The notes beneath the pieces were generated by a model that had not been told where the DNA came from, ran no database searches, and saw nothing but the letters and a program-made list of their open reading frames with translations. Source: Roseovarius arcticus (GTDB lineage: Bacteria; Pseudomonadota; Alphaproteobacteria; Rhodobacterales; Rhodobacteraceae). From it: a stretch of DNA of 64,000 nucleotides. The translations under genes and the position numbers were made by a program. Below are positions 157-7,702 of the stretch, in pieces. Every line of letters begins with the position of its first letter. The first letter of the stretch is position 1. The stretch is from the NCBI RefSeq assembly GCF_006125015.1, contig NZ_SZZN01000001.1, positions 1,736,001 to 1,800,000 on the forward strand. Direction: 5' to 3'.

Positions 157-239
157 TCTGACCAAATCTTTTCAACGATCATAGGCGGGATCGTCCCTCA
201 CCGGACGAGGTCTGTGGAAGACGCCGAAAAAGCTTGGTG

Positions 240-259
240 TGCCCCCATCGGGTGGTCCA
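240..259 (+). repeat. IS3 terminal inverted repeat, orfB side
   Basis: TGCCCCCATCGGGTGGTCCA matches the reverse complement of 1476-1495 at 15 of 20 positions, with the outer six and inner eight bases identical. It lies just beyond the orfB stop, as expected for the right end of an IS3 element. Confidence 0.8.
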
Positions 260-268
260 GTTTAAATG

Positions 269-1122
269 TTAATGCATGGTCGGTCTCTGGTCTATCGGTA
301 CGATGCTTTTTGGTGCCGGTGGACGATAATCCAAGGCGCTGTGTGGCCTGACTGTGTTGTAGTGCCGGCGCCATCTTTCGATCAGGATCTGAACCTCGCG
401 CAACGTGAAGAAGACCTCCCCGTTCAGCAGCTCGTCGCGGAAGCGGGAGTTGAAGCTCTCGCAGTATCCGTTTTCCCATGGTGAGCCTGGCGCGATGAAA
501 GCGGTTTTCGCGCCAACTGCCCCGATCCAGGCACGCACTTTTTTTTGCGATAAATTCCGCGCCATTATCCGATCTGATATATTCTGGCGGCCCTCTCAGG
601 ATAAACAGATCGGTCAAGGCGTCGACCACGTCTGTTGAATTGAGCTTACGTTTAACTCTGATCACAAGCGCCTCCTTCGTGAACTCATCGATGATATTCA
701 GTGTGCGGTAGACCCGCCCATCGTGTGTGCGATCTTGGACGAAGTCATACGACCAAACGTGGTTTGGGCGCTCAGGCCGCAGCCTCACGCAAGATCCGTC
801 GTTCAGCCAGAGCCGCCCCTTCTTGGGTTGTTTTTGTGGAACTTTCAGCCCTTCGCGCCGCCAAATTCGCTCTACGCGCTTGTGATTCACATGCCATCCG
901 CTGTTGTTCAACATCCCGGTGATCATGCGGTACCCCCTCTCGGCGATGCGAGCATCGCCTGCCGGGCAGCGCATAGCGTCCGAACTCTTCCGTCAGTGCA
1001 ATGATGTCCTCGGTTAGCCGCGCTTCGTCCGGCAAGCCGCAAGGTTCCTTGCGCTGTGTCGAACGATGCTGCCCGAGTGTGCGGCAGACCCGGCGCTCAG
1101 ATACGCCAAGGGTCTGCCGCAC
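269..1122 (-). pseudogene. IS3-family transposase OrfB (rve/DDE integrase), frameshifted
   Basis: The three reading frames together give a normal IS3 OrfB: a helix-turn-helix region (VSERRVCRTLGQHRST), then HVNHKRVERIWRREGLKVPQ, then the integrase core with the first Asp (VWSYDFVQDR), the second Asp (IRSDNGAEFI) and the Glu (PWENGYCESFNSRF). Two lesions break the frame. A 37-bp palindromic insertion at 935-971 falls between the FGRY and GYRM codons. An A8 run near 539-546, where seven A would keep the frame, shifts it again just after EFIAKK. The GTG at 1122 is the first start in the OrfB frame; real synthesis would rely on -1 frameshifting from orfA. Confidence 0.85.
935..971 (+). repeat. 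palindromic micro-element, copy A (37 bp)
   Basis: This segment interrupts IS3 orfB exactly where the family reads FGRY-GYRM. It begins CCCTCTCGGC and ends GCCGGGCAGCG. The middle forms a perfect hairpin (GGCGATG / CATCGCC with a CGAG loop), followed by a second one (CTGC / GCAG around CGG). Copies of the same element lie at 3944-3985 (inverted) and 4405-4444. Its length of 3n+1 puts orfB out of frame. The last base may be assigned to either edge because one C is shared with the flank. Confidence 0.8.
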
Positions 1123-1154
1123 ATGATCAATGCACCGACGGCGGCGGGAAGGGC

Positions 1155-1433
1155 TTAGAAGTTTCCCCGTGCGGCCTCAGTCAAGATCATCTTGTCCAGT
1201 GTCAGATCCGACACCGCACGCCTGAGCCGAGTATTCTCTGTTTCCAGCTCTTTAAGCCGCTTGAGCTGATTGCGGTTCATGCCGCCATATTCTTTGCGCC
1301 ATCGATAATAAGTCTGAACCGTCACACCGATCTGACGCACCGCTTCCGCCGTCGACCGCCCTTGCCCTTGCAGCACTTCAACTTGCCGTAGCTTCAGCAC
1401 AATATCTTCGGGCTTCTCTCGTTTGCCAGCCAT
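1155..1433 (-). CDS. IS3-family transposase OrfA
   Basis: A 92-aa protein with the helix-turn-helix of IS3 OrfA (PEDIVLKLRQVEVLQGQGRS, then QIGVTVQTYYRWRKEYGG), followed by a leucine-zipper segment (LKRLKELETENTRLRRAVSD). It binds the terminal repeats and, once fused to OrfB by frameshifting, forms the transposase. Length and start are normal. It overlaps the -1 frame of orfB, and the slippery heptamer lies four codons before its stop. The gene itself looks intact although its partner is broken. Confidence 0.9.
   Translation of the reverse strand: MAGKREKPEDIVLKLRQVEVLQGQGRSTAEAVRQIGVTVQTYYRWRKEYGGMNRNQLKRLKELETENTRLRRAVSDLTLDKMILTEAARGNF
1161..1167 (-). other. programmed -1 frameshift heptamer G GGA AAC
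   Basis: On the minus strand the orfA codons just before the stop read CGG GGA AAC TTC TAA. The heptamer GGGAAAC is correctly phased for a -1 slip (G GGA AAC to GGG AAA C), which would carry ribosomes past the orfA stop into the orfB frame (KLLSPSRRRR and on). IS3 elements are known to make their OrfAB fusion this way; use of this site is inferred. Confidence 0.65.
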
Positions 1434-1475
1434 CTCGTCGTCCTCCTGAAAACGGGATAATTCTATCCCAAAAGG

Positions 1476-1495
1476 TGGACCACTTCAGTGGGGGC
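1476..1495 (-). repeat. IS3 terminal inverted repeat, orfA side
   Basis: Its reverse complement begins TGCCCC and ends AGTGGTCCA, pairing with 240-259. It lies 42 bp upstream of the orfA start, as expected for the left end of the element. Confidence 0.8.
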
Positions 1496-1780
1496 ATTCC
1501 AACCGAACCGGACCAACAATGACTGCGAAGAGAAGTGTGACCCGGATGAGAGACAACGATTCCTAAAAGACGGAAAACAAAAGATGAAATGAACTTGACC
1601 CAAACGCCCGATTAGAGAAGTGAGGTTTCGCTGAGGTTGTACCATCGGCCACCTTCAGCGTTTTGATGTGCTGACAGACCAGCAAATCCTCTCGTGGCTT
1701 CCACTTGGTTCAGAACACCCATAATAGTATAAGAAATTGACGTTTCGGTCTCACTCCGCGACGCAAGAGGCTAGATCACG
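1496..1780. other. intergenic, no gene seen
   Basis: 285 bp between the IS3 end and the sensor kinase gene. I find no RNA gene, conserved repeat or convincing promoter. An AT-rich stretch at about 1720-1745 could hold the kinase promoter, but no clear -35/-10 pair stands out. Confidence 0.5.
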
Positions 1781-3214
1781 ATGACCGACGACTCTTCCAC
1801 TGCACTGGCGACTATGAACCCAACCGAAATTGTTGCAACCCTGCGCGAAGGTCTCCTTGTCCTGACTGAAGACCTTACCGTCGAATTCGCCAGCGACAGA
1901 TTTCTGAAAATGTTTCAGGTCGACCTCGATGAAACCGTGGGTCGTGCCCTTTCTGATCTGGGTGACGGCCAGTGGAATATTCCGACCATACTGGACCCAT
2001 TAAACGCGATTGTCGCGCAGAACCTGACGTTCCAAGATGTCGAAATCGAACACCATTTTGATCATATCGGGCGTAAGGTGATGCGACTGAATGCGCGCAA
2101 GACAGTAAGGGCGGACAACAGCACAAAGCAAATTCTGCTGGCGATAGACGATGTAACTGAAGCCGCCGATTACTCCCGGGAACTTAGCCGCCAGCGGCTA
2201 TTGGCGGAAAGCATCGTGGACACATTGCGTGAACCGCTCCTGGTTCTGGACGGTGACCTCCAGATCATTGCGGCGAGCCGTGCATTTTATTCGAAATTCG
2301 AGGTGGATGCGAGACAGGCAATTGGCAAAAATTTGACCAGTCTGGGGAATGGACAATGGGCAAATGCCGAACTGATCCGTCTTCTGAAAGATGTCGTTCC
2401 CGAACATTCGACGATAGAAGGCTATGAAATAACGCATGATTTTCCGCATATTGGCACACGAACGGTTATCCTGAACGCCCGTGAGATTTTCAGCGAGGGC
2501 AACAACACCAAGACCTTGCTACTGGCCATAGAGGACGTGACCGAACGGCGCCGCTTGGGAGCCGAGCGTGATCAGGCCCTCGACCGGTCCAATCAGCTTC
2601 TGGAAGAATTGAACCATCGGGTGATGAATTCTCTGTCGGTGATCGGCTCTGTCATCTCGATGGAAGGGCGAACTATGATCGACGATGCCTGCAAGGCGGC
2701 GTTCGTACGCATGCGCACCCGCATCGAAGCCATCGGAACCCTATATCACACCCTCTCGCGCTCGGCGGCGGTTGATAGCGTTAAGGCAAACGACTACCTG
2801 AGCGCAATTGTTCGCGATACGGTGACCGCGCTGGAAGTGTCGCCCGGAGCGATCACCCTTGATCTTTCGATCGACGATTTCTGGCTGTCCACGCGTATCG
2901 CCGTGCCCCTAGGACTGATCACTAACGAATTGGCGACAAACAGTCTGAAGTATGCTTACGAGGGGCGTGATACCGGAATACTCGGGTTGCGAGTTGTCAC
3001 CGTCGAAGGTGGCTTCGAATTCACGATCTGGGATGATGGCCTAGGCATCGATGAAGACGCACATGTGGATTCCGGCCTTGGTCAGAAACTGGTTGAGGCG
3101 TTCGTTCAGCAATTGGGCGGCGCGATGGAGCGCATCAGCGGAAAGGGCGGAACAATACACACTCTGGCAATTCCGCATTCCACACTGCTCCAACTGCAAG
3201 CCAAACGCACATAG
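1781..3214 (+). CDS. double-PAS sensor histidine kinase (HWE/HisKA_2 type)
   Basis: A 477-aa soluble kinase with no membrane segment. Two PAS domains (about residues 15-128 and 145-255) are near duplicates: both carry a G-D/N-GQW motif, an H-F-x-HIG motif and end in an LLAI-D/E-DVTE segment. They resemble the PAS domains of CheB/CheR-type proteins. The phosphoacceptor box EELNHRVMNSLSVI puts His at residue 279, then come the N-box (LITNELATNSLKYAY, 379-393), a G box (WDDGLGI) and a second glycine motif (SGLGQKLVEAF). The H-box type is that of HisKA_2/HWE kinases, which often signal through the general stress response or light. No response regulator is adjacent, and IS remnants flank it on both sides, so its partner is unknown. 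Confidence 0.85.
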   Translation: MTDDSSTALATMNPTEIVATLREGLLVLTEDLTVEFASDRFLKMFQVDLDETVGRALSDLGDGQWNIPTILDPLNAIVAQNLTFQDVEIEHHFDHIGRKVMRLNARKTVRADNSTKQILLAIDDVTEAADYSRELSRQRLLAESIVDTLREPLLVLDGDLQIIAASRAFYSKFEVDARQAIGKNLTSLGNGQWANAELIRLLKDVVPEHSTIEGYEITHDFPHIGTRTVILNAREIFSEGNNTKTLLLAIEDVTERRRLGAERDQALDRSNQLLEELNHRVMNSLSVIGSVISMEGRTMIDDACKAAFVRMRTRIEAIGTLYHTLSRSAAVDSVKANDYLSAIVRDTVTALEVSPGAITLDLSIDDFWLSTRIAVPLGLITNELATNSLKYAYEGRDTGILGLRVVTVEGGFEFTIWDDGLGIDEDAHVDSGLGQKLVEAFVQQLGGAMERISGKGGTIHTLAIPHSTLLQLQAKRT

Positions 3215-3351
3215 GCGACACTCGCCATGACGTAGAAAGCGAGCAGATTTAGGCGATGAGGCAGCATCCCAATGCTAAGATCCATCGCGCGAACCAATCC
3301 AACACGATGGCGAGGCAGTTAAAGTCTCGCCCTGCTGTCGGCTACATGAAA

Positions 3352-3876
3352 CCCGACCGTCGTTGTGGCCTGAACCGCCCCGTCAGCCTGCGGGTCTACC
3401 CCGAACGTCTGGTGGTCGTTGCCGAGGGTCAGATCCTGTGCGAGCATGTGCGAGTGATCGAGCGCAGCCACCAATTGCCGCCACGGACGATCTACGACCG
3501 GCGGCATTATCTGGCGGTCCTCCAGCGCAAGCCAGGGGCATTACGCAACGGCGCGCCCTTTGCGGAATTCCCTCCGGCCTTCAAACAGCTGCAAGACCTC
3601 ATGTTGCGCCGTCCCGGCGGTGATAGGGAAATGGTCGATATCCTGGCGCAGGTCCTGCATCACCATGAACAGGCGGTGATGGTCGCCGTGGAAATGGCGC
3701 TGGCCGAAGGTGTCGCCACAAAAACCCATGTGTTGAACCTTCTGCACCGTCTGATCGACGGAAAGACGATCGGTGGGCCCGACATCGATACGCCGCAGGC
3801 GCTGATACTTCAGCGCAAACCAATGGCAAACATTGAACGCTACGACGGCCTGCGTGCCCGAACCACCGGCCTTTGA
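3352..3876 (+). pseudogene. IS21 transposase IstA, C-terminal fragment
   Basis: The frame from about 3352 to the TGA at 3874-3876 matches the C-terminal third of IstA: a VSLRVYPERLVVVAEGQI segment, then AVLQRKPGALRNGAPF, GGDREMVDIL and ATKTHVLNLLHRLIDG. The helix-turn-helix and the DDE catalytic core, which precede this part in full-length IstA of about 500 aa, are absent. The upstream codons (3256-3350) do not look like IstA. It overlaps the istB start, as is normal for IS21. Confidence 0.85.
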
Positions 3877-3943
3877 TGCCGCGGTGCCGATGCTCGCGCA
3901 GTTGTTGAAGGCTGAACTGGTTGAGCGGGAGGTGCGTTCCATC

Positions 3944-3985
3944 CGTTGCCCGGCAAGGCGCATGCAAACCATGCTGCCGAGAGGG
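3944..3985 (-). repeat. palindromic micro-element, copy C (42 bp, inverted)
   Basis: Read on the minus strand it begins CCCTCTCGGC and ends GCCGGGCAACG, the same boundaries as copies A and B. The inner hairpin is GCATG / CATGC around GTTTG, with GGC / GCC outside. The second hairpin is TTGCC / GGCAA. Its length is a multiple of three, so it adds 14 codons to istB without breaking the frame. The host sequence without it would read RSI-AYHMK, the normal IstB sequence. Confidence 0.8.
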
Positions 3986-4404
3986 GCCTACCATATGAAG
4001 GCCGCTCGCTTCCCGGCCTATAAGGACCTCTCGGGCTTCGACTTCGCGGCCAGTGAGATCAACGAGGCCACTGTAAGGCAGTTGCATCGCTGTGAGTTCA
4101 TGGACGGCGCACAGAACGTTGTCCTGATCGGTGGCCCCGGCACCGGCAAAACCCATGTTGCCACCGCCCTCGGCGTGCAGGCTGTCGAGCATCACCGCCG
4201 CAAGGTCCGCTTCTTCTCGACCATCGAGCTCGTCAAAACGCTCGAACAGGAGAAGGCCAAAGGGAAAGCCGGGCAGCTGGCCGAAAGCCTCGTCCGCCTG
4301 GACCTCGTGATCTTGGACGAACTTGGCTACCTGCCGTTCAGCGCCTCAGGCGGCGCGTTACTCTTCCATCTGCTCAGCAAGCTTTATGAACGCACCAGCG
4401 TTGT

Positions 4405-4444
4405 CCTTCTCGGCAATTGCTGCGCATTCGCCTGCCAGGCAGCG
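4405..4444 (+). repeat. palindromic micro-element, copy B (40 bp)
   Basis: Begins CCTTCTCGGC and ends GCCAGGCAGCG, inserted where IstB normally reads TSVV-ITTN. The middle can fold as GGC-AAT-GC / GC-ATT-GCC with single-base bulges, followed by the CTGC / GCAG hairpin. With length 3n+1 it shifts istB. It lies 420 bp from copy C in the same gene, in the opposite orientation. Confidence 0.8.
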
Positions 4445-4554
4445 CATCACCACGAACCTGAGCTTCAGCGAATGGGCCACGGTCTTCGGAGACCCCAAAA
4501 TGACGACCGCACTCCTCGACCGCCTGACCCTCCGCTGCCACATCCTGGAGACCG

Positions 4555-4713
4555 GAAATGACAGCTTCCGCTTCAAAGCCAGTTCAGCCGCAGCGGCGCA
4601 GAAGCAGAGGGAGGACAATCATGCATTGACCAAAGCCTGACACCCGAAACGTAACTTAAAGGTGGCTCACTTCTCGATGGAAAACCCGGCTCACTTCCGC
4701 GTGGAAATCTACA
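4555..4713 (+). repeat. IS21 right-end segment, copy 1
   Basis: The end of istB plus the 3' terminus. It is closely matched by 17624-17777 in the same orientation, including both GGCTCACTT boxes and the boundary GTGGAAATCTACA, after which the two copies diverge. The pair brackets the amide operon as a direct repeat. Confidence 0.85.
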
Positions 4714-4799: not shown

Positions 4800-5402
4800 C
4801 TAAATATCGCCAATATTGCGCAATATACCATCGGCATTTATGATTGACTGGGCAATCTCGAACGTAGTGGTTCGCTTGGCCATCGCTTGCTTGCGGATCA
4901 CTGCATAGGCTCCTTTTTCATCGATACTGTGGTGTCGCATCAGGATAAATTTCGCATCATTGATCTTTTGCAAATTGCCCAAACGGTCTCGCAATTTGGA
5001 CAGATCTTTCTGAAATCTTATCTGCTCGGCCCAGTAACGCCTTGCCATCAGCATGCCGCTAAGAACACTTGCTGCGCGCACCGGTTTTGTTAGTAACGCA
5101 TGGGCTCCAATCTCGAAAATCGAGTCCAGCGTCGAAGGGTTCTCATAGCCGATCACGGCAATCACCGTGGGCGGCTCGTGCCCACTGCTGTTTAAAAAGG
5201 ACTTGATAACACTGGTTGGTTGATCTGTGACATCGATGAAAACGAGATCAAATTTCTTTTGCAGTACCTCGGGCAGCGGCCAAGCATTCTCAAAGTTGCA
5301 ACCAATCCGATTGAGCTGCTGTAGCAGATCATCCGCGCTGCGGTCCCTCTGGTGAACAACCAGAGTATGAAGGTCCCTCAACTCCTGAATGAAATCACTC
5401 AT
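4800..5402 (-). CDS. amiR: AmiR-type ANTAR antiterminator
   Basis: A 200-aa protein with an N-terminal pseudo-receiver fold (about 10-125) and a C-terminal ANTAR domain (about 135-195; NDAKFILMRHHSIDEKGAYA, then VIRKQAMAKRTTTFEIAQS). In the Pseudomonas ami system AmiR binds nascent leader RNA and prevents termination; AmiC holds it inactive until an amide is bound. Here it is the last gene of the operon, 3 bp after amiC, matching the amiC-amiR order of Pseudomonas. The likely target is the terminator at 13665-13709 in the operon leader. Confidence 0.85.
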   Translation of the reverse strand: MSDFIQELRDLHTLVVHQRDRSADDLLQQLNRIGCNFENAWPLPEVLQKKFDLVFIDVTDQPTSVIKSFLNSSGHEPPTVIAVIGYENPSTLDSIFEIGAHALLTKPVRAASVLSGMLMARRYWAEQIRFQKDLSKLRDRLGNLQKINDAKFILMRHHSIDEKGAYAVIRKQAMAKRTTTFEIAQSIINADGILRNIGDI

Positions 5403-5405
5403 GTA

Positions 5406-6584
5406 TCATAGCGTTGTTTGGATCACCTTCTGTGTTCTAAACTTTCGGTCATGAATCTCAGGATACACCAAATAGGGATCCGGCTTGACCGAGCGGCGAA
5501 GTTTGTTCTCGATGACGAATTCGCCATTCACATCGACCCGTGCGATACGCGACTGAAGGTAGGTGTGATTGTTGTCAGGGTCGATCTTGATCTGCCCTTG
5601 CGGAGCATCAAACGTCAGGCCGAGTAATGCGTCGTGCAGACGCTCCGTATCCATCTCGCCAACATCTTCTAAAACGGCGGCGAACATGTGCATTTGACTG
5701 TACGCCGCCTCGCAACAGCTGGTCACGTCGCTCACAGTACCAAACTTCTCTTTGTATGCCTTCAAGAACTTGCGATTCGCAGGTGAACTTATGGTGCGAA
5801 AATATGGCGCGGCGGTTATATGTCCTACAGCAGCTTCCGGGCCGATCGCAGCTATTTCAGCCTCGTTAGTGGTGAGGCTGGCAATCGGACACATGCGACC
5901 GTCACCACCGGCCGCATGGTATGCACGATAAAAATCAATGCACATCTGCCCTACCACGGTCGAGAATATCGCATCAGGCTTCATATCCAGAATCTCACGA
6001 GCAATATCCGCAAATCCCTCCTCAGTTGTATCAAAACCAAGATAGCGCTCACCTAGAATTTCTCCACCGCCTTGGCGCAACACATTTCGCATCACACGGT
6101 TCGACTCGCGCGGATAGATATAGTCTGACCCCACGAAAAAGATGCGCTTGCCGAATGTGTTCATCAGATAATTTGCCAAAGGCACGCTATTCTGGTTGGG
6201 GGTCGCGCCACCATAGATGACGTTAGGCGAGTATTCGAAGCCTTCATACAAGGTAGGATAGAAAAACAGCGCATTTCGCCGCTCAACTATCGGCAACACC
6301 TCCTTGCGCGAGGACGACATGTAGCAGCCAAAAAGAGCGGTTATCTTATCGTCGACGATGAGCTTTTCAGCCATTTCGCCGTAGTTGGAAACGATTGAGC
6401 CCGGATTATAACTTACGGGTTTGATCATGCGCCCCCGCACACCGCCACGCGCGTTGATTTCATCAATAGCAAGTAGAGTGCCGTTAAGCTGTGATTGCTC
6501 GATAATCGCCGTCACGCCGGTCGTCGAAAAGAGCATTCCGATTTTCCAGCTCTCCTGACTGTTCACTGCATCTATCCCTTTCAA
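5406..6584 (-). CDS. amiC: AmiC-type amide sensor, negative regulator of amidase
   Basis: A 392-aa periplasmic-binding-protein fold without a signal peptide, so cytoplasmic, as for Pseudomonas AmiC. Characteristic motifs include IGMLFSTTGVTAIIEQSQLN, FGCYMSSSRKEVLPIVE, FFYPTLYEGFEYSPN, YGGATPNQNS and GSDYIYPRESN. AmiC binds small amides and releases AmiR. Its start codon overlaps the amiB stop (ATGA type) and amiR follows after 3 bp, so the three are translationally linked. It is a paralogue of the operon's own transport binding protein (12374-13618), which shares the YPTLYEG and YGGA motifs. Confidence 0.88.
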   Translation of the reverse strand: MKGIDAVNSQESWKIGMLFSTTGVTAIIEQSQLNGTLLAIDEINARGGVRGRMIKPVSYNPGSIVSNYGEMAEKLIVDDKITALFGCYMSSSRKEVLPIVERRNALFFYPTLYEGFEYSPNVIYGGATPNQNSVPLANYLMNTFGKRIFFVGSDYIYPRESNRVMRNVLRQGGGEILGERYLGFDTTEEGFADIAREILDMKPDAIFSTVVGQMCIDFYRAYHAAGGDGRMCPIASLTTNEAEIAAIGPEAAVGHITAAPYFRTISSPANRKFLKAYKEKFGTVSDVTSCCEAAYSQMHMFAAVLEDVGEMDTERLHDALLGLTFDAPQGQIKIDPDNNHTYLQSRIARVDVNGEFVIENKLRRSVKPDPYLVYPEIHDRKFRTQKVIQTTL

Positions 6585-7702
6585 ACATGCCCAAAGACAA
6601 TTTTATCGTTGTGCAGGCCTGCGGTCAGCCTAACCAAGCCACCGCTACCGGGCATACCGAATTTATTACTCGGTTCCAGCAGAAATGTCGCCAATGGAAA
6701 TTCCAAATGCCGCCTCATGGCACGTCTTAGTCCACGCGCGCCAAAGCGTTTGTCATATCCCTGCTCTGCCAGGTATCCCCGCACTGCATCGTTGATGCTA
6801 ATGATGACATCATGCTTTCGCAACCTCCGGTTGAGGCTATCCATTTCGACATTAACAAGTTCCGGCATCGTCTCACGGCCAAGCCAGTTGAACGTGTCGA
6901 TATGGTCGATGCGGTTCACAAATTCAGGTGGAAACCGCTCCAGCAGGCACTTCATCACGATATCATGTGCGCGCGTGCGTTTGTCCTTAGCCGGGCTTTT
7001 GAGCCTGGATAGTATTCCAAGCCGCCCTTCCTCCAATTCCATCAGTTCCCGCGCGCCAAGATTGGATGACATGAAGATTATCGCATTGCGGAACGAATAA
7101 GTTCGCTCACCCGACGCTACGGTCAGCAAGCCATTGTCGAACACGTTTAGCAGCGCCAGCACCACCTCGTTGCTGGCCTTTTCCAGTTCGTCCAGCAGCA
7201 CAATACCTGGAAGGTTGCGGGTGCCTTCGATCTTTTCCGCGTCAAGGATAGTCGTACCCTCCTTGGAACCGACATAGCCCGGCGGCGCGCCGGTGAACGA
7301 CGCGGCGTAATGCTCCTGCGCCAGCGTATTCATGTCGATCCGGCACATTGCATCCGCGTCGCCATAAAGTGCTCGCGCGACCGTGCGCACTGTTTCAGTC
7401 TTGCCGACGCCGGTGGGGCCGCAGAACAGAAGCGACGCGAGCGGCTTGCGCGGATCGCCGATGTCGGCCCGCACTACTTTCAAAATTTCCAAAACCTCCT
7501 CAATGGCGCTATCCTGCCCAATGATCGAGCTGCGCAACTCACGTTCGACTACATCCATGTCGAAGGAAAATCGCGAGTTCAGAATGCCGACCCCGGATGT
7601 CCCGTTCGAGTGGCTGATCTGACGGGTATTTTCATCCGACAGCGCACGGTTGGTCTGCGCCTCACGTTGGGTCGCTTGCATTCGGTCACTCAGAAACGGC
7701 AT
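6581..7702 (-). CDS. amiB: AmiB-like AAA+ ATPase
   Basis: A 373-aa AAA+ protein of the ClpA/ClpB D2 type: a short N-terminal region, Walker A (CGPTGVGKTE, about residue 95), Walker B (GIVLLDELEKA), sensor-1 (FRNAIIFMSSNLGA) and a C-terminal small domain (KRFGARGLRRAMRRHLEFPL). In the Pseudomonas amiEBCRS operon amiB encodes a Clp-related ATPase of unclear role, possibly linked to amide transport. The gene lies between amiE and amiC as there. The 75-bp gap to amiE has no strong terminator. Confidence 0.8.
   Translation of the reverse strand: MPFLSDRMQATQREAQTNRALSDENTRQISHSNGTSGVGILNSRFSFDMDVVERELRSSIIGQDSAIEEVLEILKVVRADIGDPRKPLASLLFCGPTGVGKTETVRTVARALYGDADAMCRIDMNTLAQEHYAASFTGAPPGYVGSKEGTTILDAEKIEGTRNLPGIVLLDELEKASNEVVLALLNVFDNGLLTVASGERTYSFRNAIIFMSSNLGARELMELEEGRLGILSRLKSPAKDKRTRAHDIVMKCLLERFPPEFVNRIDHIDTFNWLGRETMPELVNVEMDSLNRRLRKHDVIISINDAVRGYLAEQGYDKRFGARGLRRAMRRHLEFPLATFLLEPSNKFGMPGSGGLVRLTAGLHNDKIVFGHV

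Follow-up and report, generated by a model that had tools for sequence, protein, structure and literature searches.

The genome of Roseovarius arcticus contains, within a 64,000-nucleotide stretch that we refer to as “the window” (positions 1,736,001 to 1,800,000 of contig NZ_SZZN01000001.1, assembly GCF_006125015.1), two insertion sequences (ISs) that are interrupted by short palindromic segments. The first is an IS3-family IS (window positions 235–1501, minus strand) with ends that read as TGGTGTGCCCCC...GGGGGCATTCCA, an rve domain at 540–773, and an open reading frame (ORF) at 1155–1433 (minus strand) that was named OrfA by reading. A 37 bp segment (copy 1; 935–971, plus strand) lies antisense within OrfB of this IS and shifts its reading frame. 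The second comprises a probable remnant of the IS21 transposase gene istA (3256–3876, plus strand; an ORF with a weak Mu-transpos_C_2 match below the cut-off) and an istB gene that is broken by two further segments: copy 2 (42 bp; 3944–3985, minus strand), which is antisense and in frame, and copy 3 (40 bp; 4405–4444, plus strand), which is sense and causes a frameshift. The stretch of istB that separates copy 2 from copy 3 (3986–4404, plus strand) matches the Pfam family IstB_IS21 with an E-value of 6.7e-42 over 3986–4402; the end piece (4445–4640, plus strand), into which an ORF at 4323–4640 reads on, was aligned to an empty homologue. The coordinates, strands, and ends that an earlier note had assigned to the three segments from the letters of the window were verified. 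Here, we describe evidence that these segments belong to a family of ~40 bp hairpin-forming elements, probably mobile, that is concentrated in the Rhodobacteraceae, whose members are mostly marine, and found mainly in transposase genes.

A search of the whole genome for the paired ends, as the earlier note proposed, returned six matches in 4.22 Mb and none for a reversed-pattern control. Five of the six are the identical 37 bp of copy 1, and a slightly shortened left end in the pattern also picks up copy 3. Taken singly, neither end is rare in the window: the right end, with one mismatch allowed, has 10 matches against 6.45 expected, and the left end has 41 against 40.58 expected. Copies from relatives were found by pattern, aligned, and built into a covariance model, the E-values of which are rough. 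The element consists of CCCTCTC, a covarying stem-loop, and then CTGCCGGGCARYG, mostly in 37–45 bp (lengths range from 34 to 45, with 41, 43, 39, and 37 being the commonest). The left end is CCCTCTC in 171 of 186 de-duplicated copies, and the right end is GCARYG in 165 of them. The modelled stem is 9 bp long and mostly opens with G-C, G-C, and C-G pairs.

The pairing of the stem-loop is conserved, rather than its sequence. In an alignment of 74 distinct rows, which includes 13 short antisense partial matches and, being fitted to the covariance model, leans towards structure, 95.1% of stem cells are paired and 77 cells are changed on both sides; shuffled alignments have a mean of 10.8 such double-changed cells (0 of 500 reach 77), and slid controls have at most 18. 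When the alignment is restricted to its 65 distinct full-length rows, pairing holds in 724 of 765 cells and double changes are seen in 72; shuffled versions average 10.8 and never exceed 21. A small 3′ hairpin has no double changes and is without covariation support. The element was unmatched by Rfam in ten loci, with the sole hit being a nearby RNase P.

Comparison with uninterrupted alleles indicates that the segments were inserted. For copy 1, the same genome carries an empty allele of the IS3 (locus L339), which, over 1266 positions, has 7 mismatches to the occupied IS and 38 gap positions, one more than the 37 bp of the element. The empty site reads GGTACC|CGTAGCG and the occupied site GGTACC-[37 bp]-CATAGCG. 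For copy 3, an empty IstB homologue at L248 aligns without gaps over 198 bases at 84% identity. For copy 2, by reading, the same IstB site holds a different 37-bp copy in L248, the empty counterpart of which is L244. Thus, the proposal in the earlier note that excision restores the host protein is borne out for copies 1 and 3, and for copy 2 indirectly. That note also took the segments to be separate insertions rather than passengers of one IS; this is true of the three copies in the window but not genome-wide, since copy 1 sits in an IS3 that has multiplied. Four more IS3 copies, 99.3–99.7% identical to that of the window, hold the identical 37 bp, making five occupied in total. Because there are one empty allele and five occupied copies, we conclude that the IS3 multiplied with the element inside, after insertion and despite its broken OrfB. 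One occupied copy (L117) seems to be flanked by a 4-base repeat, CCGT, of the kind that transposition of an IS would leave; no such repeat was seen at the other IS3 copies for which both ends are covered, and no left end could be located for L116. An intact copy of the IS could supply transposase in trans to the interrupted copies.

Insertion is clean. Fetched loci yielded 257 distinct combinations of element and flank, 164 of which have a loose empty-site match among these loci; 10 of the 164 belong to a large repeat (see below), and a few match other occupied repeats. In a strict set of 76 de-duplicated, ungapped pairs of occupied and empty sites, the mismatch rate at the junction (two bases before, four after) is 0.16–0.30, as compared with 0.08–0.33 in the flanks. 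Since the junction resembles the flanks, nothing is duplicated or replaced at insertion. The insertion points of the window copies, first described as N/CAT, N/GAT, and N/CAT, are better given as C^GAYG (^ marks the junction): among 186 de-duplicated sites, information lies mainly at −1 to +5, with C at 148, G at 138, and A at 111. Empty sites share this preference, more weakly. Relative to the gene, 91 of 172 insertions with an open joined frame have the same orientation and 81 the opposite, with frames set by a heuristic that is sometimes wrong and 11 of 255 combinations dropped for short flanks. Because both orientations occur, the element acts as DNA, and an RNA intron or a ribosomal bypass element is ruled out. 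Copies in the large repeat were left out of the target logo (8 of 194) and of the strict empty-site set; L197 and L310 were left out of the orientation, target, same-site, and strict empty-site sets. At shared insertion sites, most pairs have a synonymous divergence (dS) >1, and some flanks are frameshifted. IS5-type genes of several genomes (L062, L072, L231, L293, L143, and L157) are interrupted by an element at one conserved codon, LLI^DSTG; these recurrences could reflect either common descent or repeated insertion, between which the data do not discriminate.

The element is common among the close relatives of R. arcticus. In the genus, the covariance model matches 49 of 84 genomes at E ≤ 0.1 and 29 of 84 at E ≤ 1e-5; in the Rhodobacteraceae, it matches 128 of 394 genomes at 1e-5; and in a class-wide sample, it matches 2 of 190 genomes at 1e-6, both from the same family. 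R. arcticus itself has 23 matches at an E-value of 5, 11 at 1e-3, and nine distinct sites at E ≤ 0.002. A scan of named genomes gave matches in at least 120 stretches; going by name, nearly all of the matches listed belong to the Rhodobacterales, and a Labrenzia and a Rhizobiaceae assembly are also among them. The pattern is also carried by 96 of 72,556 plasmid records, by name mostly from the Roseobacter group, with two from Shinella. The earlier note had considered that intact relatives of the two ISs might normally contain the segments, or that the genome might hold no other copies; instead, empty relatives are common, and copies recur throughout the genus, family, and named-genome scans. 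Its description of a mobilisable element that is too short to encode anything, and so is moved by a protein from elsewhere, stands and now extends to hundreds of copies. A phage origin was rejected, with 0 matches in 50,697 phage records at E ≤ 1 and two exact-pattern matches in IMG/VR.

Most insertions are in transposase genes. In R. arcticus, this is true of eight of the nine distinct sites, two of them by reading only: one in the IS3 (five copies), two in istB, two in a single rve_3-domain gene, one in an IS110-type gene, and two, by reading, at LLI^DSTG of IS5-type genes (the flank of one, L082, has no Pfam match). The ninth site (L084; 26.6 bits) was assigned no gene identity. More broadly, at least 98 of 126 insertions among the matches listed (124 from the named-genome scan and two from IMG/VR) have similarity to a transposase no farther than 600 nt from the junction. 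In 69 the similarity lies within 90 nt, and in 41 it is present on both sides; family labels are incomplete, so 98 is a lower bound. As a background, 60 of 1,946 C^GAYG sites in a sample of the R. arcticus genome lie near a transposase, with a broader query set; this background comes from a single genome, and related ISs do not provide independent sites. The 28 insertions without a transposase label comprise nine in the large intergenic repeat (by reading), two at RelE-like loci, and 17 that are unlabelled. Overlapping family tallies for 125 junction fragments (L194 was too short) include IS3, IS481, IS5, IS21, IS630, IS1182, IS30, IS66, and IS256 models. Several fragments scanned alone had no family match, partly owing to wrong frames.

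Some copies are found in other surroundings. The large intergenic repeat, very roughly 150–200 bp, reads AATCGCCAGCCC...GGGCGGYC and GGCGAT-GCGCGGCGG-hairpin-TTGATTCCGCGCG. The hairpin element is often present in it at a constant position, and the repeat also seems to occur without the element (L039, L040, L041, L101, L126, L127, L130, L131, L068, L102, L030, L042, L208, L226, and L237); it has no Rfam match in the loci scanned. At L064, a copy at 1501–1540 is followed after 28 bp by a tRNA-Ile gene and then by tRNA-Ala, an arrangement like that of the spacer between 16S and 23S rRNA genes. The insertions at L197 and L310, one of which is on an IMG/VR contig, adjoin a frame that matches the RelE toxin-antitoxin family.

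We propose, with a probability of roughly 0.6, that these segments belong to a hairpin-forming, non-autonomous family of mobile elements, each ~40 bp long, which is concentrated in the Rhodobacteraceae, resembles repetitive extragenic palindromic (REP) sequences, resides mainly in transposase genes, and is moved in trans. A strand-transfer enzyme encoded by the host or within the family would cut and join the single-stranded hairpin, and may recognize the constant ends together with a tetranucleotide, C[AG]TC, of the complementary strand, by analogy with HUH transposases, which use a tetranucleotide next to a hairpin. Insertions in transposase genes would dominate because they do little harm there and because the IS would then copy the element within genomes and between species, with intact IS copies presumably providing the transposase that spreads interrupted ones. 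The element combines a hairpin with an adjacent short target and lacks target duplication, which are hallmarks of HUH-type systems; since a short target lies beside the hairpin and nothing is duplicated, single-strand, HUH-like chemistry is the most likely way in which the element would move.

Several observations weigh against this proposal. First, none of the three enzyme families considered (Y1, Y2, and IS110) tracks the element, and the search for a mover found no enzyme. Second, tolerance alone should favour intergenic insertion, because non-coding DNA makes up about 10.6%, and transposase-like DNA 1.6%, of an even 240 kb sample of the R. arcticus genome. On this proposal, hitchhiking would have to account for the excess in transposase genes; either it is strong or transposase genes are targeted. 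Third, only one IS in this genome was seen to have multiplied with its element. Fourth, the folding of the three window copies is not clearly better than that of shuffles (z of 0.00, −1.52, and 0.58). Lastly, the copies in Labrenzia, the Rhizobiaceae assembly, and the Shinella plasmids mean that the element is not strictly confined to the family.

The second of these points bears on a different possibility, that the element actively targets transposase genes. On this view, transposase genes from many IS families would be the preferred target of a Rhodobacteraceae system that introduces a 40-bp hairpin, often at a conserved acidic codon, and the element would be an IS-homing hyperparasite or a host defence that silences transposons. 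The numbers of insertions with transposases, both in R. arcticus and across genomes, are as expected of targeting, and some insertions fall on a codon for a conserved acidic residue (LLI^DSTG, LA^DGAYD, LI^DETW, HG^DDT, and S^DNGTE), which we take to be catalytic. However, information at the target covers only about six bases, and since GAY is a codon for aspartate, hits on aspartate codons are expected in any case. Moreover, copies are also found in the intergenic repeat (9 of 126 among the matches listed, by reading), at the two RelE-like loci, and beside a tRNA gene. We consider active targeting possible but doubtful, both as a general description and in the specific form of a system of this family directed at acidic codons.

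We consider it improbable that the element is a REP sequence moved by a REP-associated tyrosine transposase (RAYT) or another Y1 (IS200-like) transposase, as in enterobacteria and Pseudomonas. The similar size of the hairpin, the lack of target duplication, and the short motif beside the insertion point are consistent with such a system, and, given the C^GAYG target, PMC6006769 offers a possible lead: it describes a class 3 of Y1 proteins, the genes of which are bordered by atypical, CnGA-footed structures. On the other hand, the element has no GTAG tag and lies mostly inside genes, and the enzyme is missing where it would be needed. To compare enzymes with elements, genomes with at least three elements were defined as element-rich (23 of 84 in the genus; the counts include weak matches with E-values up to 0.1, and some genomes are drafts). 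Y1_Tnp (PF01797, E ≤ 0.001) was found in 2 of 23 element-rich genomes, in damaged or partial form only, and in 12 of the remaining 61 (Fisher P = 0.33). Element counts in the five genomes of the genus with a near-full Y1 gene (130 bits or more) are 0, 0, 0, 0, and 1. The earlier note had suggested looking for a REP-associated or IS200-like tyrosine transposase as the actor; its absence from R. arcticus and from 21 of the 23 element-rich genomes speaks against this, and largely refutes Y1 as the present mover in R. arcticus.

Transposases of the IS110 (DEDD) and IS91 (Y2) types can act without target duplication, and one of these could in principle move the element, which we regard as very improbable. 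Element-rich genomes carry Y2_Tnp somewhat more often than the rest (7 of 23, versus 7 of 61; Fisher P = 0.051). However, at E ≤ 1e-10, Y2 is absent from R. arcticus and from 16 of the 23 element-rich genomes, and IS110 is absent from 6 of the 23, three of which have 12–14 elements (two other IS110-less genomes are only about 65% complete). Y1/RAYT, Y2/IS91, and IS110 are thus rejected as required movers, as Y1 and Y2 are missing from R. arcticus and all three are missing from some or most of the element-rich genomes. A longer parent with the same ends was not found in the fetched loci or, by eye, in the five of ten element-rich genomes in which left and right ends were compared (R. arcticus, G000, and G006, G104, G053, and G058). 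Ten pairs of left and right ends lie 45–4500 bp apart in the fetched loci; in nine, the right end belongs, by reading, to a diverged complete copy, and the tenth is L317. In G058, the ends of one pair are 219 bp apart and the right end is a complete copy; in G104, a pair is about 5.8 kb apart.

Lastly, that the element is not itself mobile, and that an old insertion was spread by recombination between IS copies, is highly improbable: five IS3 copies do share one insertion, and similar copies do recur at LLI^DSTG in related IS5-type genes, but this reading is contradicted by the number of unrelated sites, with 186 distinct sites remaining after similar flanks are collapsed, in transposases of many families, and with copies that differ by one base occupying unrelated sites in Roseobacter sp. 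H9.

Between the two ISs of the window and beside them are ORFs (1781–3214 and 4800–7702) that were named by reading alone; they resemble a PAS-type sensor kinase, an AmiR-like regulator, an amide/urea ABC substrate-binding protein, and a ClpA-like AAA ATPase. Immediately ahead of the window start (G000:C1:1735134-1735568) is a gene for an IS110-type transposase.

Among known systems, several resemble the element in part. REPs with a GTAG tag are tied to RAYTs in two papers (PMC3116915, PMC6006769), the second of which also describes short REP hairpins of 21–65 nt with tetranucleotide guides next to them. Like these REPs and REPINs, the element is a short, non-autonomous hairpin with many copies and a tetranucleotide beside it. 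Unlike them, it has no unpaired GTAG or GTGG tag, ending instead in CCCTCTC and GCARYG; it lies mostly within transposase genes, whereas REPs are mainly between genes; and there is no Y1 gene in R. arcticus, nor a near-full Y1 copy in the 23 element-rich genomes. The CGTC-tagged REP super-family of alphaproteobacteria, which includes the Rickettsia palindromic elements (RPE), comprises short hairpins reported without a dedicated transposase, and the paper stresses intergenic units and replication or repair genes; the words “Rhodobacter” and “Roseobacter” are not in the main text as far as it was available (PMC3733652). The element shares with this super-family, as described there, its alphaproteobacterial hosts, its short hairpin, and the C[AG]TC that adjoins it on the complementary strand. 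In the element, however, C[AG]TC belongs to the target, varies, and occurs in empty sites. The CGTC REPs, so far as that description goes, have an 8–9 bp stem opening with A-T pairs and a CCA tail, whereas the stem of the element opens mostly with GGC, its tail is GCARYG, and its constant ends are long. With regard to a dedicated transposase, none of the three enzyme families considered here follows the element, and no parent that encodes a protein was seen in the loci and genomes compared.

Miniature inverted-repeat transposable elements (MITEs) are likewise non-autonomous, multi-copy, and spread between genomes. The element differs from them in having no terminal inverted repeats and no target-site duplication (the empty sites are clean), and no parent IS with the same ends was seen in the fetched loci or, by eye, in the five genomes. 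The small dispersed repeats (SDRs) of Nostoc, which are cyanobacterial, are reportedly very small (21–27 nt), structured, and without a known transposase; we know of no concentration of these repeats in transposase genes. The earlier note knew of no described element with these ends, and we, too, found no description in the literature searched, including by the letters of the element (among the matches listed, titles were unrelated), with subscription literature mostly beyond reach. The available portions of RepRanger (PMC12306157) do not contain the words Roseobacter or Roseovarius.

If mobile, the element would be among the smallest mobile DNA elements known, and one that lives on other mobile elements. 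Within the smallest class of mobile DNA, it would be a widespread addition that has a sharply defined target, empty sites that can be seen, and a strong association with transposase genes. The movement of transposase-less palindromic repeats, which PMC3733652 does not settle for CGTC repeats, would thereby become testable, and genomes with recent insertions offer a place in which to seek the enzyme. Should the bias towards transposase genes prove to be active, it would represent a new way for a mobile element to parasitise other mobile elements, or for a host to disarm them.

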